A stretch of 64,000 bases of DNA from Minisyncoccota bacterium (GTDB lineage Bacteria > Verrucomicrobiota > Verrucomicrobiia > Methylacidiphilales > Verrucolacustridaceae): NCBI GenBank assembly GCA_030054195.1, contig JASGCJ010000004.1:4256-68255 (forward strand), read 5' to 3'. The translations under genes and the position numbers were made by a program. The notes beneath the pieces are model-generated. The model ran no database searches. It saw only the letters and a list, made by a program, of their open reading frames with translations, and was not told where the DNA came from. Of this stretch, positions 3,863 to 64,000 are shown piece by piece (the first letter of the stretch is position 1; the number at the start of each line of letters is the position of its first letter).

Positions 3863-6618
3863 TGAATCGAAGCCTTATCCTCTGTCTTGTTCTTTTAGCT
3901 TCGTCTTTATTTGCGCAAACTGAAAAACAGATCGCTCCCATTTTTCGTGACCAAGACAAGGTCTGCTGGGTTGGCGACAGCATTACTGCCAGCGGTCTCT
4001 ACCACTCCTACATTTATCTCTACTACTCGACCCGTTTCCCTTCTCTTCACCTCTCCTTTGCGAACTGCGGCATCTCTGGAGATAACGCCTCCGGAATGAT
4101 GGGTCGACTCGACAAGGATGTTTATGCGAATCACCCCACCGTCGTCACCCTGAGCGCCGGGATGAACGATGTGAACCGCAACCTCTACTCCCAGACCAAT
4201 GCCCCCACAAATGCTCCTGTGCTGCAGAAACAGGCAATCGACAGTTATAAGAACAATATCGAAAAGCTGGCCGACTCCTTTGCCAAACAACAACTGCGCC
4301 AGATTTACTTTACTCCGACCATCTATGACGAGGATGTGGAGTCGACCGTTGAAAGCCTTCGGGGAGTCAACGGAGCTTTGCGGGAGTGCTCCGATTTTGT
4401 TCTCCAATTCGCAAAGTCGAGAAATATGCCCGCCGTCGATTTCTGGCACCCGATGGATGAACTCAACCGGAAACGTCAGAAAACCGACCCCAAGTTCACC
4501 CTGACAAGCAAAGACCGCGTACATCCGGGTGCTGCCGGCCATCTTGTCATGGCCTATCTCTTTCTGGACCAGACCGGAGCTCCCCAAGATGTTTGGCGTC
4601 TGTCTTTGGACGCGAAAACCTCCCAAGTCCTAACCCAGACAAATTGCGAAGCCACAGCGCTGAACTCCGATCCAAAGAGCCTCATTTTCTCGAACCGGGA
4701 ACTTGCCCTCCCCTTCCCCTGTATTGCGGATGCGAAAGATGCCTTCTCATGGGTTCCTTTCGATGAGCGACTCAATCAGCAGACTCTCCAGATCTCTCAT
4801 CTCGATGAAGGGAACTACTCCCTCCAAATCAACCAAGCTGAGGTAGGTCAATACTCCGCAACCGAGCTGGAAAAAGGAATTAACCTCGCGATCAACCCCA
4901 AGACACCCCAATCGGCACAGTCTGAAAAGATTGCGGCTCTCTGCCAGGAGCACTACACCCTCGGCAATACCATCCGAACCCTTCGCCGCGTCGAGATGAA
5001 GCATCTCCAGAATGTGGATCTGACCAACCGCACTGCGGTGGAAGCGTCGCTCAATAAACTGATTGAGGAAAAACAGGCTCAGAAAAACGATCCAGGCGCC
5101 AATTCGGGTTACTACATCAAAACGGCTAAGACCTACCTGAGTGAGATTCAAAAAGAACCAGAAATGCGTCTTCGCCTGAAAGCCATTCAGGATCAGATCG
5201 AATCCATTAACCAGCCCCAAAGCTATTCCTATTCCTTAAAACCAATTAGCACATCGACTTGTTTTCAAGCTCAGGGAGATTTCGCCGGAGAAGTGACGGA
5301 TCACTCGGTTCTACTTCAGTCACGAATCACTTCGATTCCCGGTCCCCTTCTTGACGCAAAAGGAGATATCCCGGGAATGGAGGGTCGAGCCTACTTCGAA
5401 TGGAGCGAAAACGAATCGTTTCGCCCATCCCAACGCACTCCTCTCCTCGAAGCCAAAGCGGAGTCCGATTTTATCATCCGAGCCGCGATCGAAGGATTGT
5501 GCGAAGGAACCCGGTACTTCTACCGACTCGTGTTTGAAAATGGAAACAAGGGGCCAACTCGCACATTTCAAACACGATCCCCTAGGGGAGATCATGTTTC
5601 GTTCTGTATGGGAAACTGCATGAACTACTATCCTTTCATCACTGGCCAACCCAACGGAGACGGACCCGTCACCGCAACAGCAGAGGACAAGCGCCTCGGA
5701 TACCCCTCCTTTGCCGCCATGCAGAAGTTGAATCCGGATTTCTTCATCGGGGGGGGCGATATTGTTTATTATGATTTTCCAAAAGATTCCCCCGCCCAAA
5801 CGGTTCCACAACTGCGAAAGAAGTGGCATGAACAGTTCCGCTTCCCTCGTCTCATCAGCTTTTTCGGTCGTTGCGGGACCTACTGGATGAAGGATGACCA
5901 TGATTTTCGCTTCGATGACGCCGACCTTGCGGGGGACCAGTTACCATCCGCCACCACAGGAAAGGATTTGTTCCGAGAACAGATGCCAATTCACGCGGCG
6001 GGGGATACGAAATCCCCAAATTACCGCACCCATCAAATCAGCCGTGACTTGCAGATCTGGTTTCTCGAGGGAAGAGATTACCGTTCTGACAACAGATCCC
6101 CTGCCGACTCGAAGAAATCGATCTGGGGCGAGGCCCAACGGAAATGGCTGGAAGCGACCTTACAATCAAGTCCTGCGAAATGGAAAATCATCGTCTCCCC
6201 CACCCCTCTCGTCGGCCCCGACCGTGCCAGCAAAAGCGATAACCACACGAACCTCAACGGCTTTCGAAACGAAGCGGACTCTTTTTTTCAATGGCTCACC
6301 GACAAAAAGATTCAAAATGTCCTGATCCTTTGCGGGGACCGACACTGGCAGTATCACAGCATTCATCCAAGCGGCGTGGAGGAACTTTGCTGTGGGGCCC
6401 TTAATGATGAAAACTCGATTCGCGGAATCGCTCCGGGAGACCCTACTTCCACCGATCCCCAAGCCACCATTCGCCAGCCTTATCTCTACCCCAACCCCAC
6501 GGGCGGATTTCTGCATGTTGATCTATCCCCAAATTCTAAAGGGACGTCACCCCTCACCTTTTCGTTTTATGACGACGGCGGAAAACTCCTCCACCAGGTC
6601 ATAAAGGAAAGCCCTTAA
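3862..6618 (+). CDS. Secreted SGNH hydrolase fused to a PhoD-like metallophosphoesterase
   Basis: I take the ATG at 3862, overlapping the GH2 stop, because it starts a signal peptide (MNRSLILCLVLLASSLFA); an in-frame start at 3823 would bury it. The protein is 918 aa. The N-terminal half is an SGNH/GDSL esterase: CWVGDSITASG with S40, NCGISGDNASG, GMND with N102, and DRVHPGAAG with D218 and H221. A linker of roughly 300 residues follows, including a Fn3-like stretch (YFEWSENESFRP to YFYRLVFENG). The C-terminal third matches PhoD-type alkaline phosphatase or phosphodiesterase folds: GGGDIVYYDFP, KDDHDFRFDDADLAG and ILCGDRHW supply metal-binding Asp/His residues. SGNH domains in such loci usually remove acyl groups from glycans; a phosphoesterase on the same chain is unusual. 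It ends 4 nt inside the convergent esterase gene. Confidence 0.8.
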   Translation: MNRSLILCLVLLASSLFAQTEKQIAPIFRDQDKVCWVGDSITASGLYHSYIYLYYSTRFPSLHLSFANCGISGDNASGMMGRLDKDVYANHPTVVTLSAGMNDVNRNLYSQTNAPTNAPVLQKQAIDSYKNNIEKLADSFAKQQLRQIYFTPTIYDEDVESTVESLRGVNGALRECSDFVLQFAKSRNMPAVDFWHPMDELNRKRQKTDPKFTLTSKDRVHPGAAGHLVMAYLFLDQTGAPQDVWRLSLDAKTSQVLTQTNCEATALNSDPKSLIFSNRELALPFPCIADAKDAFSWVPFDERLNQQTLQISHLDEGNYSLQINQAEVGQYSATELEKGINLAINPKTPQSAQSEKIAALCQEHYTLGNTIRTLRRVEMKHLQNVDLTNRTAVEASLNKLIEEKQAQKNDPGANSGYYIKTAKTYLSEIQKEPEMRLRLKAIQDQIESINQPQSYSYSLKPISTSTCFQAQGDFAGEVTDHSVLLQSRITSIPGPLLDAKGDIPGMEGRAYFEWSENESFRPSQRTPLLEAKAESDFIIRAAIEGLCEGTRYFYRLVFENGNKGPTRTFQTRSPRGDHVSFCMGNCMNYYPFITGQPNGDGPVTATAEDKRLGYPSFAAMQKLNPDFFIGGGDIVYYDFPKDSPAQTVPQLRKKWHEQFRFPRLISFFGRCGTYWMKDDHDFRFDDADLAGDQLPSATTGKDLFREQMPIHAAGDTKSPNYRTHQISRDLQIWFLEGRDYRSDNRSPADSKKSIWGEAQRKWLEATLQSSPAKWKIIVSPTPLVGPDRASKSDNHTNLNGFRNEADSFFQWLTDKKIQNVLILCGDRHWQYHSIHPSGVEELCCGALNDENSIRGIAPGDPTSTDPQATIRQPYLYPNPTGGFLHVDLSPNSKGTSPLTFSFYDDGGKLLHQVIKESP

Positions 6619-20974: not shown

Positions 20975-23900
20975 ATGAAAACCCCACGCGTCATCCTCGC
21001 CCTGCTGGGGTTTTTTGCGGCAAACCTCCACAGCCAAGCCTACCAATATGAGTACACTCCCTATAATGCTGGGGCAATGGACCCGCAGCCAAGCGGTTGG
21101 CCGGTCACTGATGCAGAGAAACTCTACATCCAGCAGGCAGAATACTTGCGGTACCCGGGTAAAGAAACGTCTAAGAACGCAACCGGGCAGCCCACCGGCA
21201 TAAGTATTTTGACCATGGTGGCGCAAACGCCCAACACCCAAGGCTGGGGGGCCAACAATTCGTACTTCGATACTCATCAGAAAACTATCCAACCGATTTT
21301 GGACAACACCGATAACATTCGGGACAGTCTAGATATCATCATGGTCGGTGACAGCATCACCTCCCAGTGGGGCGGAGGGCAGATGGGCGCATGGACAGCG
21401 ACATGGACCTCCAACTTTGGTTCTTACAAGGCGATCAACATGGGAATTGGCGGGGATCGCACTTCGTCGGTTCTTTGGCGTTTAGATCACGCACCCTTCG
21501 ACCTCCTCACGCGCCCACCCAAGGTCATCGTCCTGCAAATCGGCAACAACAACCAATACCTGAAGGCTCAGGGCGTGCCGACTTCCAGTAGCGTGCAAGG
21601 GGTGGTGACGTGCTTGAAAAACCTGCGCTCCAAATTCCCCAGCACGCCGATTATCTGGTTAAATCTGTTTCCCGTGACAGGGCTCAGCTCGAGCACCTAC
21701 CTCAAGGAACTTCACGATGCCTGCACCGCGGCAGGCATCACCGAGCCGGCTTCACCCAACTACGTTTCCAATGTTTATCCGCTCGATCTATGGAACCAAT
21801 ACGTGAGCGCGGACGGAGTCACCGCGAATTCTACATATTTCTATGACGGGGTTCATCCGAACGCTGCGGGTTACCAATTATGGGCCGACAATATGAAGCC
21901 GATGATCACCGCGTTACTGAACCCTGCGGTGACCTACAACGGCAACGGCAACACGGGCGGCACTGCCCCGATCGATGCCAGCAGCCCATACGCACAAGGT
22001 GGGACAGTGACGGTGATTGGCAACACGGGCAGTCTGACCAAGACCAACTACACCTTCGCGGGCTGGAACACGGCCGCCGACGGTAGCGGAACGAGTTACA
22101 GCGTGGGCAGCACCTTTGCGATTTCCAACCCGACCACCCTGTATGCCCAGTGGCTCTTTAGCGGAGCCTGTACGCTGACTTACAACGGGAACGGCAACAC
22201 GGGCGGTAACGTGCCTGCCGACAGCAGCAGTCCCTACGCGGCTGGAACAACGGTCACCGTGCTAGGTAACACAGGCGGCCTGACCAAATCTGGAAGTTAC
22301 ACCTTCGGGGGCTGGAACACAGCCGCGAACGGCAGCGGGACCACCTATACCGCAGGTAATACCTTCGCCATCAGGACCCCGACCACACTCTATGCTCAAT
22401 GGACTTACAACGGGCCAACTTACACGGTGACCTACAACGGTAACGGCAGCACGGGCGGGAGCGTTCCTGCCGAAACCAACAGCCCTTACATGCCCGGCGT
22501 GACAGTGACAGTGCTGGGCAATACCGGGAGCCTTAGCAGGACCAACTACATCTTTGCAGGCTGGAACACGGCCGCCGATGGAAGCGGAACGAGCTACAGC
22601 GCGGGCAGCTTGTTCACGATTTCGAGCGCCACCACCCTTTATGCAAAATGGACATTCAACGGCCCCTGCACGCTGACCTATGACGGAAACGGAAACACGG
22701 GCGGGACCGCGCCCACCGACGCGAACTCCCCCTACACGGTCGGGGCAACAGTCACAGTGCTAAGCAATACTGGCAACCTGAGCAAGTCTGGCAACTTCAC
22801 CTTCGCGGGCTGGAACACGGCCGCAAACGGCAGCGGAACGAGTGTCGTCCCGGGAAATAACTTCACCGTCGTAGCCCCGCTCACCCTGTATGCCCAGTGG
22901 AACTCCACAGCCACTTATACATGGACTCAAACCGCAGGTAACACACAGCCCTGGGCCACGGCAGGAAACTGGTTGGGTGGGGTCGCCCCCACTCCGTTTT
23001 CCGGTGACACGATGGACTTCAGCACAGTCAACATTGCGGCCTCCACGACTTTGACCCTGGGCGCGGACAGGACGGCGACTATATGGAACTTCGGCGACAC
23101 CTCGGGCGCCCAGACCTGGAGTGTTGCCAGCAGCAACAAGATTATCTTGGCGGGAACCGCCCCGACGATCTGCGTGCTTCAAAACTCCCTCACGGTAAAC
23201 TGCCCCATCACTGGTTCGGCCGGTCTTACCAAAGCTGGGGCGGGTCTCTTGACGCTCTCCAGCAGCACGAGCGCCTACACCGGCGGCACCTTCATCAAAG
23301 AGGGATCGCTTGCCTTGGGAACGGGCAACGACAGAATCCCGACCGGTTCGGTGGTGACGCTTGGCGACACTTCCACCAAAGGCACACTGATTTTGGGCAG
23401 CAGCGGCACCCCGCGAAATCAAACGCTCGGCGGGCTGTCGAGCACAGGGCTGGGCGGTAACGTGATCGGCCAAGGTGCAGGCTCCACACTCACTTTGAAC
23501 ATGTCCGCCAACAGCACCTACGGGGGCGTATTGGGTGGAACGGGCACGGGCAATAACAATCTTATACTCATCAAACAAGGCAATGGCACACTGACGCTCT
23601 CTGGCGCCAACACCTACACGGGCGCAACCTCGCTTAATGGTGGCACACTCGTAGTCAGCGGCAGTCTTGCGAACACCACCGTGACCGTGGGTAACGGCGC
23701 AACTCTCGCCGGTTCAGGCAACATCGGTGGAAGCGTTATCATTCAAAACGGAGGCCATCAGGCGTTCGTTGTCGCCACGACTTCCGGAGCACAGGCAACC
23801 CGCACCATCAGCGGAACGCTCACGTTGGATGCTGGCCACGTCATCGACCTCACCTCCGCAGCCACGTCCGCCGCTGGAACCTACACTCTCGTCACGGCTA

Positions 23901-24379
23901 CTGGGGGCGTGACTGGCACCGTTGGCACCGTCAATCTGACCGGTCTTAACGGTACTGTCTCCATAGTTGGCAAGAGTCTCGTCCTTACCGTCGCCGCAGC
24001 TAGCTATTATGAAAGCTGGAAAAGCGCCAACAGCCTGATCGGAGGACCCACCGCAGACGAGGATGGGGATGGATGGACAAATTTCCTGGAGTATGCGTTC
24101 GGGAGTAATCCCAAGGCCTCCAACGGCTCCTTGATCTCGATTGAGCCAACAGTTTCAGATGGTCCAACGCTCAGGTTCAATCGTCGCTCCCCGGAATATG
24201 GGGGTCCCGCCATGAGCTACTGGTACTCCCAAAGTTTGTCACCGGATTCATGGCAGGAGTTCGTGCCCGAGCGAATGGATGTTTCTGGATCTGGAGAGGT
24301 TCAGGATGCCCGCGCCGTGCTACCAGCAACCCTCCGCAATCAACCCAAGAGTTTCTTCCAGATTCGCGTATCCCAATAG
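20975..24379 (+). CDS. Giant secreted SGNH hydrolase with InlB-type repeats and beta-strand repeats
   Basis: 1134 aa. Signal peptide MKTPRVILALLGFFAANLHS, then the family motif YTPYNAGAMDPQPSGWPVT shared by other SGNH proteins in this window. Catalytic core: VGDSITSQWGG with S127, INMGIGGDRTSSVLWRLDH, IGNNNQY, and DGVHPNAAGY supplying Asp/His near residues 289-292. From about 320 to 645 come four Listeria-Bacteroides (InlB B) repeats. After these are two autotransporter-associated strands (GAGLLTLSSS, GNGTLTLSGANTYTG) in a beta-helical stretch, and a C-terminal module with DEDGDGWTNFLEYAFG, common in secreted proteins of Verrucomicrobiota. No PEP-CTERM or beta-barrel end is present. Probably a cell-surface carbohydrate esterase held or extended by the repeats. 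Confidence 0.82.
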   Translation: MKTPRVILALLGFFAANLHSQAYQYEYTPYNAGAMDPQPSGWPVTDAEKLYIQQAEYLRYPGKETSKNATGQPTGISILTMVAQTPNTQGWGANNSYFDTHQKTIQPILDNTDNIRDSLDIIMVGDSITSQWGGGQMGAWTATWTSNFGSYKAINMGIGGDRTSSVLWRLDHAPFDLLTRPPKVIVLQIGNNNQYLKAQGVPTSSSVQGVVTCLKNLRSKFPSTPIIWLNLFPVTGLSSSTYLKELHDACTAAGITEPASPNYVSNVYPLDLWNQYVSADGVTANSTYFYDGVHPNAAGYQLWADNMKPMITALLNPAVTYNGNGNTGGTAPIDASSPYAQGGTVTVIGNTGSLTKTNYTFAGWNTAADGSGTSYSVGSTFAISNPTTLYAQWLFSGACTLTYNGNGNTGGNVPADSSSPYAAGTTVTVLGNTGGLTKSGSYTFGGWNTAANGSGTTYTAGNTFAIRTPTTLYAQWTYNGPTYTVTYNGNGSTGGSVPAETNSPYMPGVTVTVLGNTGSLSRTNYIFAGWNTAADGSGTSYSAGSLFTISSATTLYAKWTFNGPCTLTYDGNGNTGGTAPTDANSPYTVGATVTVLSNTGNLSKSGNFTFAGWNTAANGSGTSVVPGNNFTVVAPLTLYAQWNSTATYTWTQTAGNTQPWATAGNWLGGVAPTPFSGDTMDFSTVNIAASTTLTLGADRTATIWNFGDTSGAQTWSVASSNKIILAGTAPTICVLQNSLTVNCPITGSAGLTKAGAGLLTLSSSTSAYTGGTFIKEGSLALGTGNDRIPTGSVVTLGDTSTKGTLILGSSGTPRNQTLGGLSSTGLGGNVIGQGAGSTLTLNMSANSTYGGVLGGTGTGNNNLILIKQGNGTLTLSGANTYTGATSLNGGTLVVSGSLANTTVTVGNGATLAGSGNIGGSVIIQNGGHQAFVVATTSGAQATRTISGTLTLDAGHVIDLTSAATSAAGTYTLVTATGGVTGTVGTVNLTGLNGTVSIVGKSLVLTVAAASYYESWKSANSLIGGPTADEDGDGWTNFLEYAFGSNPKASNGSLISIEPTVSDGPTLRFNRRSPEYGGPAMSYWYSQSLSPDSWQEFVPERMDVSGSGEVQDARAVLPATLRNQPKSFFQIRVSQ
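21932..22905 (+). repeat. Four in-frame InlB B-type tandem repeats inside the giant SGNH gene
   Basis: Four units begin near 21932, 22178, 22430 and 22676 with periods of about 246, 252 and 246 nt (82-84 codons). Each starts with a TYNGNGNTGG-like stretch, passes through a GNTG..T box and F-GWNTAA-GSGT, and ends with TTLYAQW. They are similar but clearly diverged at DNA level, so not a recent expansion. Confidence 0.85.
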
Positions 24380-54932: not shown

Positions 54933-55958
54933 ATGCGAATCGCACACCCTGCTCACTGGCTGCGACCCGCCTTGGTGGCCGGATTAATCCTCCTCACCGT
55001 CGCATCGGTTGTACGCGCCTCAGAACCTCCTCGCCTCACCTATCCTTACGCACCCTACAATGGAGGGAAAATGGATCCCCAACTCACGGGGTGGCCGCTC
55101 ACCGGGGAGCAGATGGCTTGGGTCCTCAAGGGGGAATACACCCGCAAGCCCGGCCACGAAGTGGACAAGCATCTTCCAGAGATGTGGTTTGTCACGCCGA
55201 CCGCTTCTCGCTGGGGCAAAAATCCAGCTGTAAACGACTGGGTCACACATCACGGCACCTTGATTGACCGGGTCCGTGCGGCCGGTCCCGCCATCGACAT
55301 CGCGCTGTTGGGAGACAGCATCACGCAAGGATGGGGCGGAGGTTGGGATGGAATGCCCGTGATCGCGGCTTGGAAAAAAAGCTTTGATGGGCGCAAGATG
55401 GTGAACCTCGGAATCGGCGGCGACCGAATCGAACATATACTCTGGAGGCTGGACCATGGTGCACTGGACGGCGCGTCCCCCAAAGTGATCGTCCTGATGA
55501 TCGGCGTGAACAACGCCCCACTTGTCTTTGCAAACGGCGTCCCCGCCATTCGGGCCGCGGAAGGCATCAAGCTCTGCCTCGACAATCTTCGCATCCGTTG
55601 CCCACGGGCGCAGATCGTTTTGATCAAAGTGCTTCCCGCTTTCGATCCCACTAAGGAGACCGGCAAAGCGGTGGTGGACATCAACAAGGCGCTTGACCAT
55701 GCCGGACTCGACACCGATCCCCACGTCCACATCCTCGACCTTACGGGAGATTTCACCAATCCCAACGAAACGCTCAAAACCGAGCTCTACTCCGGCGATA
55801 ACCTGCACATTAGTCCGGCCGGTTACGAAGTCCTCTCGACAAGACTGAAGCCGCTGGTGGACCAACTCCTAGATGAAACGGGCTCACCAAAAGCCCCGAG
55901 CGCTTTGAGGCCGGATGCCCGTCCCGCTGCGTTCGCGCAACCCTCCGCAGGCGCATGA
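54933..55958 (+). CDS. Secreted SGNH hydrolase of the MDPQ-GWPLT family
   Basis: 341 aa. N-terminal export segment LRPALVAGLILLTVASVVRA, then LTYPYAPYNGGKMDPQLTGW, the shared family motif. Blocks are complete: ALLGDSITQGWGG with S129, NLGIGGDRIEHILWRLDHG, IGVNNAP, and GDNLHISPAGY with the Asp/His pair. Probable acyl esterase in the envelope or outside. It opens the plus-strand run behind the LacI operator and overlaps the alpha/beta hydrolase by 4 nt (ATGA). A nearly identical gene order recurs at 59767-61610. Confidence 0.87.
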   Translation: MRIAHPAHWLRPALVAGLILLTVASVVRASEPPRLTYPYAPYNGGKMDPQLTGWPLTGEQMAWVLKGEYTRKPGHEVDKHLPEMWFVTPTASRWGKNPAVNDWVTHHGTLIDRVRAAGPAIDIALLGDSITQGWGGGWDGMPVIAAWKKSFDGRKMVNLGIGGDRIEHILWRLDHGALDGASPKVIVLMIGVNNAPLVFANGVPAIRAAEGIKLCLDNLRIRCPRAQIVLIKVLPAFDPTKETGKAVVDINKALDHAGLDTDPHVHILDLTGDFTNPNETLKTELYSGDNLHISPAGYEVLSTRLKPLVDQLLDETGSPKAPSALRPDARPAAFAQPSAGA

Positions 55959-56866
55959 AAGCGATCCTCTGGCCTGCCCTCTTCGTGGTCTTCAGCCTCG
56001 TGCCCGGCCGGGCGGTTGAGATTCAGACCGATCTGGCGATTCCACCTCTCTCCACAGAAGGCCCTTCGCCGAGGCACCGGTTTTTGGAAACTGCGCCCGA
56101 GTACAAAGGGACTGACGTTCACCATCAGGTTTATCTTCCGCCCGACTGGACGCCCGATTGGAAACACTTAAAGAAATCCTGGCCCGTGGTTGTTGAATAC
56201 ACGGGAAACTACTATCCCCCGTCGGGTTCCACCGGACGGGTCGAGGATGCCGCCTTGGGGCTTGGCCTCAGCGGAGGAAAAGCGATCTGGATCGTGTTGC
56301 CGTTTGTTTCTGCGGATGGGACGAAAAACGAGCTGATGTGGTGGGGCGACGAGCAAGCCACGGTCAACTACGCGAAAACCAACGTCCCCCGTCTGTGCGA
56401 AACCTACGGTGGAGATTCGGAGCGGGTGGTGCTCTGCGGTTTCTCCCGAGGGGCTATTGCCGTGAATTACATCGGACTCCACGATGACGAGATCGCCCGG
56501 CTCTGGAGCGGGTTCATGTCCCACGACCATTACGATGGCGTGCGTGCTTGGCCTGGCACGACCTGGGGCGCACCCTTAGAATCTTATCAAGAAGCCGCGG
56601 GCAAACGGCTCGCGCGACTGCAGGGCCGTCCCGTGCTGATCTCCCAAGCGAATGAGACCGGTGGCACACCCATGATCGAAAAATACATCGGTCCCCGGCA
56701 GCGTCTCGGGAAATTTACCTACCTCGGCTTCACCATGCGGAAACTTTTCCAGCAAATCCCCAATAACCTCTTTCAGGACCCGCACACGGACAGGTGGATG
56801 ATGGTTGATTCGCCGGAAAGGCAGAAAGCTCGCACATGGTTCACAAGCATTCCCCACAAACCATGA
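55955..56866 (+). CDS. Secreted alpha/beta-hydrolase esterase
   Basis: 303 aa with signal peptide MKAILWPALFVVFSLVPGRA. The beta-strand/elbow VVLCGFSRGAIAVNYIGL carries the nucleophile S164 in a GxSxG box, as in PHB-depolymerase/feruloyl-esterase-like hydrolases. PVVVEYTGNYYPPSG and WIVLPFVSADG form the sheet and oxyanion region, and FMSHDHYDG supplies Asp/His candidates. It is a clear paralogue of the protein at 60639 (same SRGAIA and YIGLHDD stretch). Coupled by an ATGA overlap to the SGNH gene, so two different esterase folds are made together. Confidence 0.83.
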   Translation: MKAILWPALFVVFSLVPGRAVEIQTDLAIPPLSTEGPSPRHRFLETAPEYKGTDVHHQVYLPPDWTPDWKHLKKSWPVVVEYTGNYYPPSGSTGRVEDAALGLGLSGGKAIWIVLPFVSADGTKNELMWWGDEQATVNYAKTNVPRLCETYGGDSERVVLCGFSRGAIAVNYIGLHDDEIARLWSGFMSHDHYDGVRAWPGTTWGAPLESYQEAAGKRLARLQGRPVLISQANETGGTPMIEKYIGPRQRLGKFTYLGFTMRKLFQQIPNNLFQDPHTDRWMMVDSPERQKARTWFTSIPHKP

Positions 56867-56996: not shown

Positions 56997-58754
56997 ATGA
57001 TGCCTCAAGCCGCTCCTCAAGTTTGCTCCATTTCACCAACAATACCCGCACGCGAAGCGACCGATGCCGAGCGCGACACTCGAATGCAGTGGTGGCGCGA
57101 AGCGCGCTTCGGTCTGTTCGTCCATTGGGGGCTCTTCAGTGCGGCCGGCGGAACATGGCATGGGCAGAAAACCCCGTGGCTCGGGTGTTGGATGCAATCA
57201 AGTTTGAAAATTCCGAAAGAGCAGTATGCGGCGGCGCTACTGCCCATGTTTACGGGTGAACATTTCGATGCGGATTTTCTCGCTCAGTTAGCCAAGGACG
57301 CCGGGACGCGATACATCGTACCGATCACCAAGCACCACGAAGGCTTCTGCCTCTTCGACTCGAAGCACACAGATTTCAAAATCACCAACACCCAAGCCAA
57401 GCGCGATTGGATTCGGGAACTGGCGGATGCCAGCCGTAACCGCGGGCTGAAAGTGGGTTTCTACTATTCGCAGAACCTCGACTGGCACCACACTGAAGAG
57501 GGCTGGACCCCGGAACGCTATTTCGACGAGTTGGTCTTGCCACAGGTCGATGAACTCCTTTCCGGTTACGGCGAGGTGTCGATCCTTTGGTTCGACATCC
57601 CGGGCGGAGTGATCAACCCCAGTCGAGCTCGGCGTTTGGTTGAACTGTCCAAAAAACTTCAGCCCAACATCGTGATGAACAATCGCCTCGGCGGGGGCTT
57701 TCAAGGGGACTTTCAAACCCCCGAGCAAGTCATTCCGCCCACAGGCATTCCCGGGCGGGACTGGGAAACCTGCCAAACCCTCAATGACACATGGGAATAC
57801 ACCCACTACGACCGGAATTGGAAAAGCCCGACCATGCTCGTGCGCGAACTCATCGATACCGTGAGCAAGGGCGGCAACTACTTGCTCAACATTGGCCCAA
57901 AACCCGATGGCACCGTTCCGCAGAGCAACATCGACATCCTGCGGGCCATTGGCGGTTGGATGAAAGTGCACGGCGACTCGATTTATGGCACGGCCGCCTC
58001 GCCCTTCCCTCGTCAGCTTCCCTGGGGACGCTGCACGCAAAAGGACCTCGGCAATGGGGTAACCCGGCTCTACCTGCACATTTTCCGCTGGCCCTTTGAT
58101 TCCATCCTGCGGGTCCCTGCGCTGGATAATGAAGTTTCTGCGGTCGCCCTCCTGAGCGAACCCGACGCCGGACCGCTCAGCTACATCGAAGATGCCAATG
58201 GAGACCTCTTGGTCCGCCTCCCGATTGCCGAACCCAACGACTACGCCACCGTCGTCACCCTCGATGTTAAAGGCGCACCCAGGGTGGCCATCCAACCGAT
58301 CCGCACCAACGACAAGGGCATCCTGGAACTGCCGGCCAGTCTGGCCTTGATCCAAGCTGCTCCCGCCATCGCGGAAATTGCCGGCTTTGGTGAGAAGACC
58401 AAGACGCTCTACTACAATCCCGTGACCCATACGCTCGACTCCTGGATGAACCCTGAAGACTGGGCGTTCTGGCCGGTCAGCACCGCGCAACCCGGCGAGT
58501 ATTTTGTGGACGTGGTCTACAGCCGCAAGGAAAGCGGCGAGAGTTGCGAGTATCTCGTGGAGCTGGGGAACCAGAAAATCGCCGCAGCAGCAAACACCAC
58601 GGGGGCGGAGCAAGTCCGCACCGATCGCATCGGAGTCCTCAAGATCGACAAGACCGACCGCTCCGATGTCGGAATCCGACTCTCGAAAAGAACCGAGCAA
58701 GAGGCCATAAAAGTTCGTTCCATCACGCTCATACCTATCTCAATGAACCAATGA
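56997..58754 (+). CDS. GH29 alpha-L-fucosidase
   Basis: 585 aa. N-terminal catalytic barrel: QWWREARFGLFVHWGLFSAA, RYIVPITKHHEGFCLFDSKH, DWIRELADASRNRGLKVGFY, and VSILWFDIPGG with the retaining nucleophile D200. GNYLLNIGPKPDG closes the barrel; a C-terminal beta domain follows. GH29 enzymes release alpha-linked L-fucose. No signal peptide is seen and an upstream in-frame stop rules out a longer start, so it may act in the cytoplasm on imported fucosides, or be exported another way. The released fucose fits the fucP/fucI pair 38 kb away. The last four bases overlap an ATG at 58751. Confidence 0.92.
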   Translation: MMPQAAPQVCSISPTIPAREATDAERDTRMQWWREARFGLFVHWGLFSAAGGTWHGQKTPWLGCWMQSSLKIPKEQYAAALLPMFTGEHFDADFLAQLAKDAGTRYIVPITKHHEGFCLFDSKHTDFKITNTQAKRDWIRELADASRNRGLKVGFYYSQNLDWHHTEEGWTPERYFDELVLPQVDELLSGYGEVSILWFDIPGGVINPSRARRLVELSKKLQPNIVMNNRLGGGFQGDFQTPEQVIPPTGIPGRDWETCQTLNDTWEYTHYDRNWKSPTMLVRELIDTVSKGGNYLLNIGPKPDGTVPQSNIDILRAIGGWMKVHGDSIYGTAASPFPRQLPWGRCTQKDLGNGVTRLYLHIFRWPFDSILRVPALDNEVSAVALLSEPDAGPLSYIEDANGDLLVRLPIAEPNDYATVVTLDVKGAPRVAIQPIRTNDKGILELPASLALIQAAPAIAEIAGFGEKTKTLYYNPVTHTLDSWMNPEDWAFWPVSTAQPGEYFVDVVYSRKESGESCEYLVELGNQKIAAAANTTGAEQVRTDRIGVLKIDKTDRSDVGIRLSKRTEQEAIKVRSITLIPISMNQ

Positions 58755-58912
58755 TTATCCAGCTCCAGAAACTCATCTCCCTCATATTCGCAATCTTCCT
58801 GAGGTGCGAAAGCCGGCGCGATCAGCCTTCATTTTCGCCGCCAGCGCTTCCTTTGCCAACAGTCCCACAAAACAGCGGCCTTGCGATCACCTGCGCGAAG
58901 GCGTGCGCCATC
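58751..58912 (+). pseudogene. Apparent 5' remnant with a second export segment
   Basis: An ATG at 58751 overlaps the fucosidase stop (ATGA) as at other operon joints here and begins MIIQLQKLISLIFAIFL, a hydrophobic stretch. The frame then runs through low-complexity sequence straight into the next gene's own signal peptide. It looks like the leftover start of a deleted or rearranged secreted gene, or an unusual N-terminal extension of the next gene. Confidence 0.35.
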
Positions 58913-59770
58913 ATGCATAGGATTAACCAAAACAATACGAGGATGTGCACTGTTCTCCTGCTCTTCGCTTGCCTCGCCGGAATCGCGTCGGCAGCGGACG
59001 TGCTCGGCCCAGAAGAAGTTTTGGCTACGAAGCCAGCCGACACGGCGGCCATCGCCAAGCGCCGTCCAGCGGACCCGGCGCTATGGCCCGTTACCCCCAC
59101 CGCTGGATACGGGGGCTGGTCCAAGACCACCGGATCGACCTGGCTCGGCAGCCACGCCAAACTTGAGGCCGTTGCGGCGGCAAGCCCCTCAGCCGAGATC
59201 TTACTGCTAGGCGATGCGCTTCCAGCCACTCTGGGCAATGGGGTAGAGGCCACGCCAACGCCGCCTGCGTCCTGGAAGAAGTATTTAGGATCTAGACAAG
59301 TTCTCAATCTAGCCCAGCCCGGAGAGAACACCGAGCAGGTGCTCTGGCGTTTGAAATGTGCATTCATTGATCACCTCTCGCCTCGCGTGGTCATAATCGG
59401 CGTAGGCGCGAACAATCTCGTGGCGGTTGAACGTCATAAGGTGCCTGTAGCTGCCATAGCCAAGGGTATCGAGACGGTCATCAGCACGGTGCGTTCCCAC
59501 TGGCCCAATGTGATCGTAGTGGTCATCGAACCCCTGCTGATGGGTCGTCCCAAACCTGCCCAGCGCGAGTACCTCGCTGCTCTCCAGACTGCCATCGACG
59601 CCCTTCCCCGAATACCAGGGGTCACTTTCGTGGATCCACGAGGCCTGTTGGCCGATGATGCCGGCGTGATCCGCGCCGACCGCTCGGGGTATGGGGGACT
59701 AATGCTGAACGATGCTGGTCGCGAGGCCTTGGGAGACGCCCTAGCGGCGGCGCTGAAAGGACAACCATGA
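58913..59770 (+). CDS. Degenerate SGNH-like secreted protein (probable pseudoenzyme)
   Basis: 285 aa from 58913; an ATG at 58943 (MCTVLLLFACLAGIASA) is an equally good start. After the signal peptide come a shortened family motif (DPALWPVTPTAGYGGW) and an SGNH-like core that keeps NLAQPGENTEQVLWRLKCA and IGVGANN. The nucleophile is lost: LLLGDALPATLG has A102 where the active relatives have Ser (GDSIT). The final DxxH block is also gone (SGYGGLMLNDAGREAL). The fold appears complete, so the protein may bind glycan or partner the active esterase, whose gene follows with an ATGA overlap. Confidence 0.75.
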   Translation: MHRINQNNTRMCTVLLLFACLAGIASAADVLGPEEVLATKPADTAAIAKRRPADPALWPVTPTAGYGGWSKTTGSTWLGSHAKLEAVAAASPSAEILLLGDALPATLGNGVEATPTPPASWKKYLGSRQVLNLAQPGENTEQVLWRLKCAFIDHLSPRVVIIGVGANNLVAVERHKVPVAAIAKGIETVISTVRSHWPNVIVVVIEPLLMGRPKPAQREYLAALQTAIDALPRIPGVTFVDPRGLLADDAGVIRADRSGYGGLMLNDAGREALGDALAAALKGQP

Positions 59771-60642
59771 ACATCTTTCGTCTGCTACCTATTGCTCTCC
59801 TCGGTTCGGCTATAGCCGCCCAGGAAACACTACCGATCACTTACCCTTACGAGCCCTACCATCAGGGGCAGATGGATCCGCAAATCACCGGCTGGCCATT
59901 GAGCGCAGAAGGACATGCTTGGGCCATCCGGCCACGCGACCAGCGCCGGCCCGGCGACGAAGTGGGAAACCCTCGGCTGGAACTTATCCCGGTGGTTCCA
60001 TCGGCAAGCCGCTGGAAAGATCCCGAGAAATGGCTGAACCTCCATAGCACCCTGGTGGAAATCGTGCGTTCTCAGCAGAAGCCGGTGGATGTGGTCCTCC
60101 TCGGCGACAGTATCACTTGGATGTGGGGCGGCACCAAAACCGGCAATCCCAAATTCGAGGAGGCTTGGACTAAGCGCTTCAGCCACCTGAACACAGTTAA
60201 TCTCGGCATCCAGGGAGACACGACGGAAAATATCCTTTGGCGATTAGACCACGGGGCCTTAGACGGCATCGACCCGCAGGTCGTAGTGCTGCTGATCGGC
60301 ACCAACAATAAGCCTAACGCCAAAACGCAGACTGCGGTGGCCGAAGGTATCCGCCTGATCCTCGATAATTTGCAAAAGCGCTTGCCCAAGACTCGGATCA
60401 TCTTGGTCAAAACCCTGCCGGTGGCGACCGAAGACATGCGCCGCTTCTGCGATCATCTGGATACGCTTAGCTTTGACCAGCGCCCCGGGGTCCAAGTGCT
60501 CGACTTGTGGGAGGAACTGGTGCTCCCCGACGGCACGATCGACCGTGACCAATACATCGACGGCAGTCTGCATCTGGGCGCCGGATACGAGATATACGCC
60601 GATAAGCTGCAACCGTTGATCGATAAGGCCCTGAAACCATGA
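59767..60642 (+). CDS. Secreted SGNH hydrolase of the MDPQ-GWPLT family
   Basis: 291 aa. Signal peptide MNIFRLLPIALLGSAIAA, then ITYPYEPYHQGQMDPQITGW. Blocks: LLGDSITWMWGG with S115, NLGIQGDTTENILWRLDHG, IGTNNKP. The last block is YIDGSLHLGAGYEIY: the His is there but the Asp is one residue further away than in DxxH. Role as in the copy at 54933; this is the second SGNH plus alpha/beta hydrolase couplet. Overlaps on both sides are 4 nt (ATGA). Confidence 0.87.
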   Translation: MNIFRLLPIALLGSAIAAQETLPITYPYEPYHQGQMDPQITGWPLSAEGHAWAIRPRDQRRPGDEVGNPRLELIPVVPSASRWKDPEKWLNLHSTLVEIVRSQQKPVDVVLLGDSITWMWGGTKTGNPKFEEAWTKRFSHLNTVNLGIQGDTTENILWRLDHGALDGIDPQVVVLLIGTNNKPNAKTQTAVAEGIRLILDNLQKRLPKTRIILVKTLPVATEDMRRFCDHLDTLSFDQRPGVQVLDLWEELVLPDGTIDRDQYIDGSLHLGAGYEIYADKLQPLIDKALKP

Positions 60643-61610
60643 CCCGATCTGTCCTCATCCTTGTGCTTATTGTCCTGCCTTTCACCCAGTGTTGGGCGAC
60701 TGAAGTAGTCAGCCCTCCGGACGTCTTGACCATCCCTGCGGATTTGGAAAATCCAGTATTGGCCGATGGAAAACCCGCCCCGGGCAAAGCTGTACTGCAA
60801 TCCCTTCCACGCTACGCCGGCACGGAAGTCACCCACGCGCTTTACTTGCCCACAGATTGGTCTCCGAACAAGCGGTTCCCTGTTCTGGTCGAGTATTTGG
60901 GCAACACCGCCCGCGTTCGTGATTACCGGGGCATCGGTTACGGCCTGACTGGTGGGAAAGGCTTCATTTGGGTCGTACTGCCTTTTGTCAGCTCTGACGG
61001 CAAAAAGGACGAGGCGTGGTGGTGGGGCGATGTGGCAGCAACCGTTGCTTATGCCAAGGAAGCCGTGCCGGCAATTTGCAAACAATGGGGTGGGAATCCA
61101 GCCAAGGTGATTCTGATTGGCAGTTCGCGCGGCGCGATCGCATGCAACTACATCGGCTTGCATGACGACCAAATTGCCAAGCTCTGGCAGGCCATCATTC
61201 CGGTCAGCCACTACGACGACGGACACATTCCTTGGGACATGACGCCCGAGGAGCAACATCATGCCTCGGAACGGTTGCGACGACTGGGAAACACTCCGCA
61301 GTTGATCGCGGGCGAGCATTGCAGTGTCCCGCAACTTGGCAGTGACAAACCGCTTTTGGAAAAAATCAAAGAAAAGAAACTTACCTCGTTCATCGCTGCA
61401 AAGGGAGAGCTTGGGCTCAAGCCAATAACAGAAGTCGAAGGCACACGAAAGTTTATCGCGAGCAACTTTCCCCAAGGGAACTTCACGATCCTTGACCTGC
61501 CGTGGGTGAATCATAACGCGTCTAAGGCCTTGTTGCGGGACACGCCCGAACGGAAAAAGATTCGGCAGTGGATTCAAGAGATGGTGCGCGACGCGCAAAA
61601 TGATTCCTAA
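60639..61610 (+). CDS. Secreted alpha/beta-hydrolase esterase, paralogue of the 55955 product
   Basis: 323 aa with signal peptide MTRSVLILVLIVLPFTQCWA. The nucleophile elbow VILIGSSRGAIACNYIGLHD has S163; PVLVEYLGN and WVVLPFVSSDGKKDEAWWWG match the paralogue closely. Acid and His candidates are in VSHYDDG and near VNHNASK. An esterase on glycan-linked acyl groups is the best guess. The start overlaps the SGNH gene by 4 nt; the thioredoxin-like gene follows 5 nt later. Confidence 0.83.
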   Translation: MTRSVLILVLIVLPFTQCWATEVVSPPDVLTIPADLENPVLADGKPAPGKAVLQSLPRYAGTEVTHALYLPTDWSPNKRFPVLVEYLGNTARVRDYRGIGYGLTGGKGFIWVVLPFVSSDGKKDEAWWWGDVAATVAYAKEAVPAICKQWGGNPAKVILIGSSRGAIACNYIGLHDDQIAKLWQAIIPVSHYDDGHIPWDMTPEEQHHASERLRRLGNTPQLIAGEHCSVPQLGSDKPLLEKIKEKKLTSFIAAKGELGLKPITEVEGTRKFIASNFPQGNFTILDLPWVNHNASKALLRDTPERKKIRQWIQEMVRDAQNDS

Positions 61611-61615
61611 GAAAC

Positions 61616-62929
61616 ATGAAAACAATCACAACTCTCCTCGTCTTGATGTCGTTTGTCATTACTGTCCATTCCGAACAGTTGTCGCCTTCAGATTTAGTAA
61701 AGATAAATGAACTAAGAAAGGCGGTGGAGGATGCCTACACAGCCATGCGTCCCACCAAAGGCGACAGCGGAAATCTTGACAAGGCCTATGCGCAGTTGGA
61801 GGAAACCAATGTGCCCAAAATATTCTCACTGGCCCAAAAAGAGCCGGAATCACAACCCGCTTTCGATGTGTTTTTGTGGATTGCGATGGACAGTTACGCA
61901 TTGCGTGGACTCATTCGCACCTATCAGCTCCAATCACTGGAATACCTCGCGAATTATCATTCAACCAACTCAAAGCTTGGCCCGCTCTGCAGTTATCTTG
62001 GCCGCTACTGCTTTAATACGTGGGGTGGCAACCGAATGAATTGGATTTGGCTGAAGCCAGGAGTCGAACATATTTCCAACCCCGCCTATGGCGCCCGTGC
62101 GATTAAGGAGATGGGCCGTCTTGAAGCTAACAAATCCGGGCGGCCGGCGGTGGACTTTCTGAAGTCAGTAATCAAAAACAATTCCAACCGCGCCATTCGC
62201 GCTCAAGCGATTTATGCCTTGGGGCGTTTCGACGCCGAAAAGTTCGCGGATTTGGATGGATTTGAGAAAATTCCGGTATATGCGAAAGGCATGAGCGCTA
62301 ACGTTTTGGCTGAATGGAAAACATTCGGAAGTTCCCAGCAAGCCGCTGCCGATGCCGAGAACGAATTCAACGATGTCATAGCCAATTACTCTGACTGTCT
62401 TGATTTGGGGGAACGGAGTAGCCCGAAAGAAAAAGCACCACGTTTAAAGGAACTGGCGGAACAAAACTTATTTGCCCTGAAACATCTTTCCCTCGGCAAA
62501 GAAGCCCCGGAAATCGAAGCGAAGGGCGTGGATGGCAAACTTTTTAAATTAAGCGACAGTCGTGGAAAGATCTGTGTGCTGACTTTTTGGGCGAGCTGGT
62601 GCGGTCCCTGCATGGCGATGGTTCCCGAGGAAAGAGCACTGGTCCAGCAGATGCAGGGGAAACCATTCAGCCTTATCGGCGTCAATGGCGACGAGTCACT
62701 CTCGAATGCTAAGCGTGCGATGGAACGCGAACAGATGACATGGCCTTCTTTTTGGAATGGCAAAGAGGGATCAAAAGGGCCGATCGCCAAGGCATGGAAT
62801 GTTAAGGGCTGGCCAACGATTTATATCTTGGACGCCAAAGGAGTCATCCGATTCAACGGGGCGGCAGCCGACGACCTCAATCGATGTGTGGACGAACTTA
62901 TGAAGGAGCTGGCAGACACCTCATTATGA
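61616..62929 (+). CDS. Secreted TlpA-like thioredoxin-fold protein with large N-terminal domain
   Basis: 437 aa with signal peptide MKTITTLLVLMSFVITVHS. Residues about 20-295 are helix-rich and unassigned (DLVKINELRKAVEDAYTAM, FARSKL-like helices). From about 300 a redoxin/TlpA fold runs APEIEAKGVDGKLFKLSDS, TFWASWCGPCMAMVPEE with the CxxC pair near residues 328-332, and GWPTIYILDAKGVIRFNG with the cis-Pro. TlpA-like proteins reduce or isomerise disulfides outside the cytoplasm. Inside an esterase operon it may help fold Cys-containing secreted proteins, though the neighbours are Cys-poor. It overlaps the next start by 4 nt. Confidence 0.8.
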   Translation: MKTITTLLVLMSFVITVHSEQLSPSDLVKINELRKAVEDAYTAMRPTKGDSGNLDKAYAQLEETNVPKIFSLAQKEPESQPAFDVFLWIAMDSYALRGLIRTYQLQSLEYLANYHSTNSKLGPLCSYLGRYCFNTWGGNRMNWIWLKPGVEHISNPAYGARAIKEMGRLEANKSGRPAVDFLKSVIKNNSNRAIRAQAIYALGRFDAEKFADLDGFEKIPVYAKGMSANVLAEWKTFGSSQQAAADAENEFNDVIANYSDCLDLGERSSPKEKAPRLKELAEQNLFALKHLSLGKEAPEIEAKGVDGKLFKLSDSRGKICVLTFWASWCGPCMAMVPEERALVQQMQGKPFSLIGVNGDESLSNAKRAMEREQMTWPSFWNGKEGSKGPIAKAWNVKGWPTIYILDAKGVIRFNGAAADDLNRCVDELMKELADTSL

Positions 62930-64000
62930 ACCACCCCGCACTTCTCGCCGCAGGCATAGCATTGCTTGTCCCGGGCTTCCTGCCGGCCGCGGAACCCACT
63001 CCGCCCCCACCCATCACCTATGTCGAGCCGGGAAACGAACCCCAGCCCGAGGGCTGGCCGCTGACGGTTCCCGCCCAATGGGAGTATGTGAACCGCCGCT
63101 TCAAGCAAGGAAGCTTTGAGCCCATTCCCGGACGCTATGCAGCTCCGAACATGGATCCCAAGACGGGCGAAATCCAACGCAGTTCCTGGATGATGCAGCA
63201 TGCCGCGCTCGTCGAGCGTCTGGACTCGCTGGCGAGCAGTCCGGATGTCGTGCTCATCGGCGACAGCATCACGCAGAACTGGGGCAACACGGCCCTCATG
63301 GGAAAGAGCCTGGCCGCCATCCGTTCCGTGCCCGCATGGGATGAACATTTTCCGAATTACCTTTTCTACAACAGCGGCCAGGCCGGGGGAGCGCAGAATA
63401 CGGCCCTCTGGCGGCTACGACACGGCGGCCTCACGGGCAGCCACGGCAAAGCCGTGGTCAACCCGAAACTGGCCATCGTTAACCTCGGCGTGAACCCGAT
63501 CATCGGCTCCGAAGATTACGCAAGGATGGCGGTCGGCACTCGCCGCGTGGCCGAGGAGGTCCGGCGACAGTTTCCTGAATGCCGCGTGTTGGTTCTTGCG
63601 GTCTATCCCACGGCGCGCAAGGCCGAGCGGGTCGCACCCTTGAATGCCGCGGTGGCGGCGGAGCTCAAGCCGCTGACCGACGACCCGCAGTCGGGCATCC
63701 ATTACCTCGACATCGGTGAACACTTCCTCGAAGCCGACGGCGTCACCCTCAAGGAGCAGTTTTTCCACGACCGGCTCCACCCCAACGAACTCGGCTACGA
63801 TGTCATAGCACGCGCCATCAAGCCGAAGGTGGACGAACTCATGCAGCAAGCCTACGGCGGTCGGCCGTTCCCCACGATCAAGTCCCCGACAGAAGCGGTG
63901 GGACCGCGCAACACGCCGCTCGAAGTCCAATTCGAGGTGGACGATCCCGCCGGGGTGCCGGGCGACCTCAAGGTGTCCGCCGTTTCGGAATTGCCGGAAC
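62926..64000 (+). CDS. Secreted SGNH hydrolase, 3' part outside window
   Basis: 358 codons are open to the window end. Signal peptide LLAAGIALLVPGFLPAA, then a variant family N-terminus (ITYVEPGNEPQPEGWPLT and NMDPKTGEIQ). Blocks: VVLIGDSITQNWG with S114, YNSGQAGGAQNTALWRLRHG, NLGVNP, and FFHDRLHPNELGY with Asp/His. After residue 300 a new domain begins (VQFEVDDPAGVPGDLKVSAV), probably an Ig-like or beta-strand repeat module that continues outside. Its ATG overlaps the stop of the TlpA-like gene, so it continues the same operon. Confidence 0.83.
   Translation, partial: MNHPALLAAGIALLVPGFLPAAEPTPPPPITYVEPGNEPQPEGWPLTVPAQWEYVNRRFKQGSFEPIPGRYAAPNMDPKTGEIQRSSWMMQHAALVERLDSLASSPDVVLIGDSITQNWGNTALMGKSLAAIRSVPAWDEHFPNYLFYNSGQAGGAQNTALWRLRHGGLTGSHGKAVVNPKLAIVNLGVNPIIGSEDYARMAVGTRRVAEEVRRQFPECRVLVLAVYPTARKAERVAPLNAAVAAELKPLTDDPQSGIHYLDIGEHFLEADGVTLKEQFFHDRLHPNELGYDVIARAIKPKVDELMQQAYGGRPFPTIKSPTEAVGPRNTPLEVQFEVDDPAGVPGDLKVSAVSELPE

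Follow-up and report, generated by a model that had tools for sequence, protein, structure and literature searches.

A candidate SGNH pseudoenzyme encoded beside intact paralogues in a bacterial glycan-degradation island

Within a 64,000-nucleotide stretch of contig JASGCJ010000004.1 (assembly GCA_030054195.1, Minisyncoccota bacterium), referred to throughout as the window, the gene P0001 encodes an SGNH-family protein from which the conserved catalytic residues are gone and in which the SGNH fold is predicted to be retained, the combination expected of a pseudoenzyme. The leading reading, held with evenly balanced confidence, is that P0001 is an orphan SGNH pseudoenzyme of the platelet-activating factor (PAF) acetylhydrolase-like branch and most likely acts as a pseudo-subunit or glycan binder beside intact esterases. 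The protein is read as catalytically dead because Ser, Asp and His are all lost and because the loss of Ser or His was seen in none of the other domains read. Membership of the family is given by the match to PF13472 (Lipase_GDSL_2; 59.9 bits, cut-off 32.9, E 5.9e-16), and the match to PF00657 is weak (24.6, cut-off 23.6). The reading frame and its ATGA overlap with the next gene, both described in an initial annotation of this DNA, were confirmed when the coordinates were rechecked. The features of P0001 are as follows.

58913..59770, + strand: P0001, open reading frame of the candidate SGNH pseudoenzyme, 285 aa, with the PF13472 match, an AlphaFold2 model and a fold match to PAF acetylhydrolase Ib
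58751..58753, + strand: alternative in-frame ATG, overlapping the fucosidase stop
58913..58993, + strand: probable signal peptide, residues 1-27, cut ASA-A, judged by eye from the translation
59210..59233, + strand: block I, GDALPATL, with Ser102Ala at 59216-59218 and Ile103Leu, Thr104Pro, Gln105Ala and Trp107Leu
59306..59326, + strand: block II, NLAQPGE, with Gly137 kept and Gly134Ala, Ile135Gln, Gly136Pro and Asp138Glu
59405..59416, + strand: block III, GANN, with Asn167 kept
59687..59722, + strand: block V region, GYGGLML, with Asp261Gly, His264Met and Tyr270Arg

Catalytic residues of P0001 and the rarity of their loss

Block I of P0001 reads GDALP where its relatives read GDSIT, placing Ala102 at the position of the nucleophile, and block V reads GYGGLML where relatives carry DxxH or an Asp one place further from the His (YSDGHLH). 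The predicted nucleophile and acid-base residues are lost, and the putative oxyanion residues, the block II Gly137 and block III Asn167, are not. Flanking residues in blocks I and II have also changed, and the loss is therefore not a one-base event. In a Streptomyces SGNH lipase, replacement of the Ser, Asn or His by Ala each abolished activity (PMC10779480), and catalysis by P0001 through the SGNH mechanism is very improbable. Migrated catalytic residues are possible in some pseudoenzymes (PMC10211241). A P0001 that is still an enzyme, through such migration or through other chemistry, is nevertheless highly improbable, as the catalytic places of blocks I and V hold neither Ser nor His and no Asp lies near the lost His.

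Both replacements had been noted in the initial annotation, and a profile-based alignment of 158 distinct domain stretches, a set that contains near-copies, bears them out. The Ser column carries a letter in 148 of the 158 stretches, with 146 Ser, one Leu and, as the sole Ala, P0001; the Leu belongs to L205 and is a register slip, as that protein reads GSS. Of the ten stretches with a gap in this column, six read GSS by eye (L196, L201, L202, L206, L209 and L211), one belongs to the latter part of L226, where the Ser is found in the first part, and three fragments lack block I (L038, L104 and L200). The His column has 155 His among 156 letters, the sole exception being Met264 of P0001, with Gly261 at the Asp position. 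Eighty loci of the alignment set came from a pattern scan for GDSIT[QW][GYM]W or LWRLDHGA and are thus partly selected for Ser; no such selection applies to the genome searches in which P0001 was the query. In the genome of P0001 itself, Ser is kept in 10 of the 11 PF13472 matches.

Candidate dead relatives were also considered among PF13472 proteins of about 241 aa that are conserved in the genus, in which the late start of the match in the profile gave the impression of a missing block I; they were rejected, as those read have GSS and DGLH or DDLH. Two further sequences are unusual in other ways. An SGNH-like protein of the same genome (L218, 795-1472, - strand) has GDSI and a C-terminal His, and reads NAGLHD where the block III Asn is expected. 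L104 (13249-13968, + strand) joins an unrelated N-terminal part to a short SGNH block V fragment and is perhaps a recombination remnant.

Predicted fold and maintenance of the reading frame

The AlphaFold2 model of P0001, built with 83 aligned sequences, shows a full SGNH fold (mean predicted local distance difference test score, pLDDT, 84.5; predicted template-modelling score, pTM, 0.84). Its closest solved structures are PAF acetylhydrolase Ib entries (Z 24.8 to 25.5), with 3dt8 at Z 25.5 and a root-mean-square deviation of 2.5 over 211 residues and the alpha1/alpha2 heterodimer 1fxw at Z 25.3, followed by sialic acid esterases at Z near 20. Foldseek and phmmer also ranked PAF acetylhydrolase Ib first. 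An alpha/beta/alpha SGNH fold is further indicated by the range of about Z 15 to 25 across the 50 entries listed, nearly all of them esterases or lipases by title. As the model leans on the alignment of relatives, it indicates compatibility of P0001 with the SGNH fold rather than proof of it.

The frame of P0001 is open over 285 codons, and its codon usage is ordinary, ranking 10th lowest among 37 hand-picked window genes scored leave-one-out. This ranking replaced a first impression of odd codon usage, in which P0001 scored lowest against seven operon neighbours and its reverse strand scored better; the 37-gene comparison puts it inside the range. Neutral drift was simulated by substitutions only, on the segments of the paralogues P0003 and P0002 that match P0001, with 200 runs each. 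Runs on P0003 and P0002 stayed free of stops in 6 and 1 cases at 50% identity, in 2 and 0 at 40%, and in 0 and 1 at 30%. P0001 is 30% identical to P0003, a figure that spans both lineages, so that the drift of P0001 itself may be less. On the basis of the open frame, the codon usage and the simulation, P0001 is not an obvious pseudogene; a gene drifting neutrally to this distance would usually lose its frame, and P0001 therefore looks kept for a non-catalytic role. We read this as a gene in which the fold is constrained and catalysis is not.

An assembly or sequencing error is an explanation of almost negligible probability. The source is a 100-contig assembly that is 87% complete, but the changes extend across several blocks of an intact frame with ordinary codon usage, and the gene is internal to a contig of 81.7 kb. 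The start codon of P0001 is not certain because the in-frame ATG at 58751 overlaps the stop of the fucosidase gene; a start there (window 58751-58912) would add 54 residues, including a second hydrophobic segment. The protein is probably exported.

Gene neighbourhood and divergence of P0001

The genes around P0001, all on the same strand, are the following.

54933..55958, + strand: P0003, SGNH paralogue with the catalytic set intact, clustering with the C-terminal domain of tandem SGNH proteins
55955..56866, + strand: ABH1, alpha/beta-hydrolase-like (GFSRG), with an ATGA overlap with P0003
56997..58754, + strand: alpha-L-fucosidase (PF01120), ending 158 bases upstream of P0001
59767..60642, + strand: P0002, SGNH paralogue that retains Ser, Gly, Asn and His; an Asp precedes the His by four residues (DGSLH)
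60639..61610, + strand: ABH2, alpha/beta-hydrolase-like (GSSRG), with an ATGA overlap with P0002
61616..62929, + strand: thioredoxin/AhpC-TSA domain protein, starting 5 bases after ABH2
62884..63999, + strand: P0004, SGNH paralogue with GDSITQ and DRLH intact, continuing past the window end

The stop of P0001 and the start of P0002 share an ATGA (59767-59770). The initial annotation had described the gene as translationally coupled to an active paralogue; the overlap stands, and the activity of P0002 is probable, judged from its intact catalytic residues only. Upstream, P0003 and ABH1 form a pair (54933-56866) parallel to P0002 and ABH2, with 44% identity between P0002 and P0003 and 39% between ABH1 and ABH2. 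The occurrence of the fucosidase together with fucose isomerase, AXE1, GH2, SASA esterase, GH38 and MFS transporters elsewhere in the window marks this region as a glycan-degradation island.

Several results weigh against a maintained non-catalytic partner, beginning with the extent of divergence. Forty-four columns are conserved at 80% or more among 82 relatives (96 non-redundant domains, with 14 left out by hand); P0001 keeps 23 of these and the median member 42, and 12 of the 21 lost fall in blocks I, II and V. Still present are GxNN, WRL, N132, W77 and W121, and this distribution of lost and kept positions speaks for the leading reading. The N-terminal GWPL-type motif, present in 56 other long rows, which are partly redundant, is gone: the pattern itself is found in 54 of 57 long rows, two of the remaining three read GWPLA and GWPLN, and P0001 alone is without the motif. 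The earlier claim that the fold-defining segments remain can thus be upheld for the predicted fold and for about half of the conserved columns, and not for the other half or for this motif. P0001 was considered as a clear extreme in column loss and this was dropped: with the 14 domains restored, 23 of 44 are likewise kept by a remote SGNH domain of the window (3958-4554), in which Ser and His are intact, and 35 by P0004. What sets P0001 apart is the identity of the lost residues, not the number of columns.

In both trees, too, the branch of P0001 exceeds all others (6.58 and 6.32 changes per column), which fits relaxed constraint. P0004, which only the first tree includes, has a branch of 5.73 despite an intact triad, and branch length alone therefore says little. 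The placement of P0001 is loose. It joins P0002 with support 26/0 where long branches meet, and approximately unbiased (AU) tests reject neither the clade of first domains (d1) of tandem SGNH proteins (p 0.297) nor that of second domains (d2; p 0.355), nor joins with W20975, W30376 and W64885 (p-AU 0.102, 0.167 and 0.314). The idea that P0001 is demonstrably domain 1 of a tandem protein was accordingly abandoned. The two-domain SGNH proteins themselves (L025-L029, L036 and L039-L051) carry Ser and His in both domains, and a two-domain fold model of the L029 protein (16 rows) gave a pTM of 0.50 and no confident packing, so that the pairing idea draws no structural support from it. In the drift simulation at 70% identity, 16 and 11 of 200 runs remained free of stops, which leaves room for modest recent drift, and selection on P0001 is judged from one genome, with no orthologue for dN/dS.

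The same isolation emerges from searches across partly overlapping genome sets. P0001 as query matched proteins in 3 of 21 genus genomes at 1e-10, 12 of 384 class genomes at 1e-20 and 4 of 387 phylum genomes, its own genome included each time, and in its own genome only among 62 order genomes at 1e-15. Among the relatives of three genomes with tandem SGNH proteins (145, 107 and 107 genomes), matches at 1e-18 occurred in 4, 8 and 5. The non-self matches are family members at 27-37% identity; the samples of genus, order, class and phylum yielded neither an orthologue nor another dead copy, Ser and His being kept in all matches read over the active site, although the class and phylum searches scored at most six candidates per genome and a weaker dead relative could have escaped. 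Pattern scans of viral contigs (3 matches) and genome contigs (32 matches) gave nothing related. Along the route through ABH2, 16 of the ABH-bearing regions were read, of which two (L033 and L157) have an SGNH domain, both with Ser and His and neither dead. As 14 of the 16 lack an SGNH domain nearby, the link between SGNH and ABH genes is local. The initial annotation had named recurrence of the same dead copy beside active copies as a check and a lack of conservation in relatives as grounds for refutation; recurrence and conservation were both looked for, and neither was found in the sampled genomes, a result that within this sample counts against the proposal by the annotation's own standard. 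Of its central claim, a pseudoenzyme kept inside the operon, the pseudoenzyme part is favoured by the lost residues, the predicted fold and the open frame, and the evidence that it is kept is indirect and comes from one genome.

These observations bear most directly on a reading in which P0001 is a redundant duplicate under relaxed constraint, retained as an in-frame upstream gene whose translation helps to start P0002. Such a duplicate would account for the lack of an orthologue in the sampled genomes, the very long branch and the lost motif and columns. It sits poorly with the simulations, in which neutral drift this far usually gives stops, and with the intact predicted fold, even allowing for the dependence of the model on relatives, and is considered possible but doubtful.

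With P0002 as query in 369 genomes, the best matches outside its own genome are mostly the same tandem and single proteins, at 40-49% identity. In L046 the next gene after that of a tandem SGNH protein is 70% identical to ABH2, and in L052 two separate SGNH genes adjoin an opposite-strand ABH gene (60% identical). The window order of dead SGNH, live SGNH and ABH2 corresponds to that of L046 with the first unit dead and the genes separate. The two domains of the tandem proteins fall in separate clades. Such proteins come from records whose titles name Verrucomicrobia, Lentisphaerae, Pirellula and Gemmataceae, and this spread across phyla suggests horizontal transfer.

Possible roles and comparable proteins

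For P0001 as a non-catalytic pseudo-subunit or glycan binder, we infer export, selective maintenance, and pairing or glycan binding. The protein would be made together with the esterase of the next gene, P0002, and would fold as an SGNH domain without the residues of the Ser-His mechanism. It may then pair with P0002 as a pseudo-subunit or, alternatively, hold an acetylated glycan via its remnant pocket, on which the neighbouring esterases, the fucosidase and other enzymes of the cluster would act. A bolder version, regarded as unlikely, makes P0001 and P0002 a heteromeric carbohydrate esterase, a bacterial prozyme-like SGNH pair in which P0001 would be the obligate non-catalytic half that presents an acetylated fucosylated glycan to P0002 or activates it.

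The nearest solved relatives by sequence and predicted fold, the PAF acetylhydrolase Ib alpha1/alpha2 proteins (1fxw, 1wab and 3dt8), offer an analogy for pairing, 1fxw being by its title a heterodimer of two SGNH subunits. P0001 differs from them in lacking Ser, Asp and His and in being bacterial and probably exported. The tandem proteins belong to the same family and likewise have two consecutive SGNH units, followed in L046 by an ABH2 relative, but are fused with Ser and His in both domains, whereas P0001 and P0002 are separate genes of which the first appears dead. The AdoMetDC prozyme of T. brucei, a dead paralogue that forms a heterodimer with its active partner and thereby activates it (PMC5201418), could serve as a model for a hypothetical P0001-P0002 pair, though enzyme and organism are unrelated.

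Glycan binding without a protein partner, with the former active site turned into a lectin-like pocket, is a less favoured possibility. Consistent with it are the retained block II Gly and block III Asn, the predicted fold and the surrounding cluster of glycan enzymes, and there is a precedent in CtCE2 of Clostridium thermocellum, an esterase domain of the SGNH family CE2 whose active site also binds cellulose non-catalytically (PMC2661963). CtCE2, however, is still catalytic and its binding uses the Ser-His dyad together with added aromatics, whereas P0001 has neither the Ser nor the His.

SGNH/GDSL pseudoenzymes are already known in plants. PMC4757993 describes At1g54030, in which the block I Ser is replaced by Gly, lipase activity is absent and a new cellular role has been acquired, and states that a required block is missing from 171 of 820 GDSL sequences of plants in Pfam. 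At1g54030 shares with P0001 the lost block I Ser; it is a plant protein from an unrelated context, and only the block I change is described for it in that text. The available part of an SGNH review (PMC9487903) describes triad variants and no dead bacterial paralogue in an operon, and searches of the open-licence literature listed no report of such a paralogue.

If the pseudoenzyme reading is true, a dead esterase has been retained in a glycan-degrading operon although its Pfam match above the cut-off would count it as an active acetyl esterase, which calls for caution with esterase counts taken from domain matches, and P0001 and P0002 would form a small two-gene system in which a dead paralogue possibly aids a live one. 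P0001 alone, an orphan known from a single assembled genome, does not change the view of SGNH proteins.

Other features of the region concern the ABH proteins and further SGNH architectures. A scan for promoters and terminators gave counts near the shuffle expectation (4 versus 3.6 and 13 versus 10.2). ABH1 and ABH2, each coupled to an SGNH gene, have no Pfam match at 0.001, and relatives of ABH2 occur in 48 of the 384 class genomes, its own included. The protein at window 20975-24379, which combines an SGNH domain with Listeria-Bacteroides and passenger-associated (PATR) repeats in one chain, may be a surface-displayed esterase, and a 931 aa protein at window 3823-6618 joins a GDSL domain to a PhoD-like phosphatase domain.
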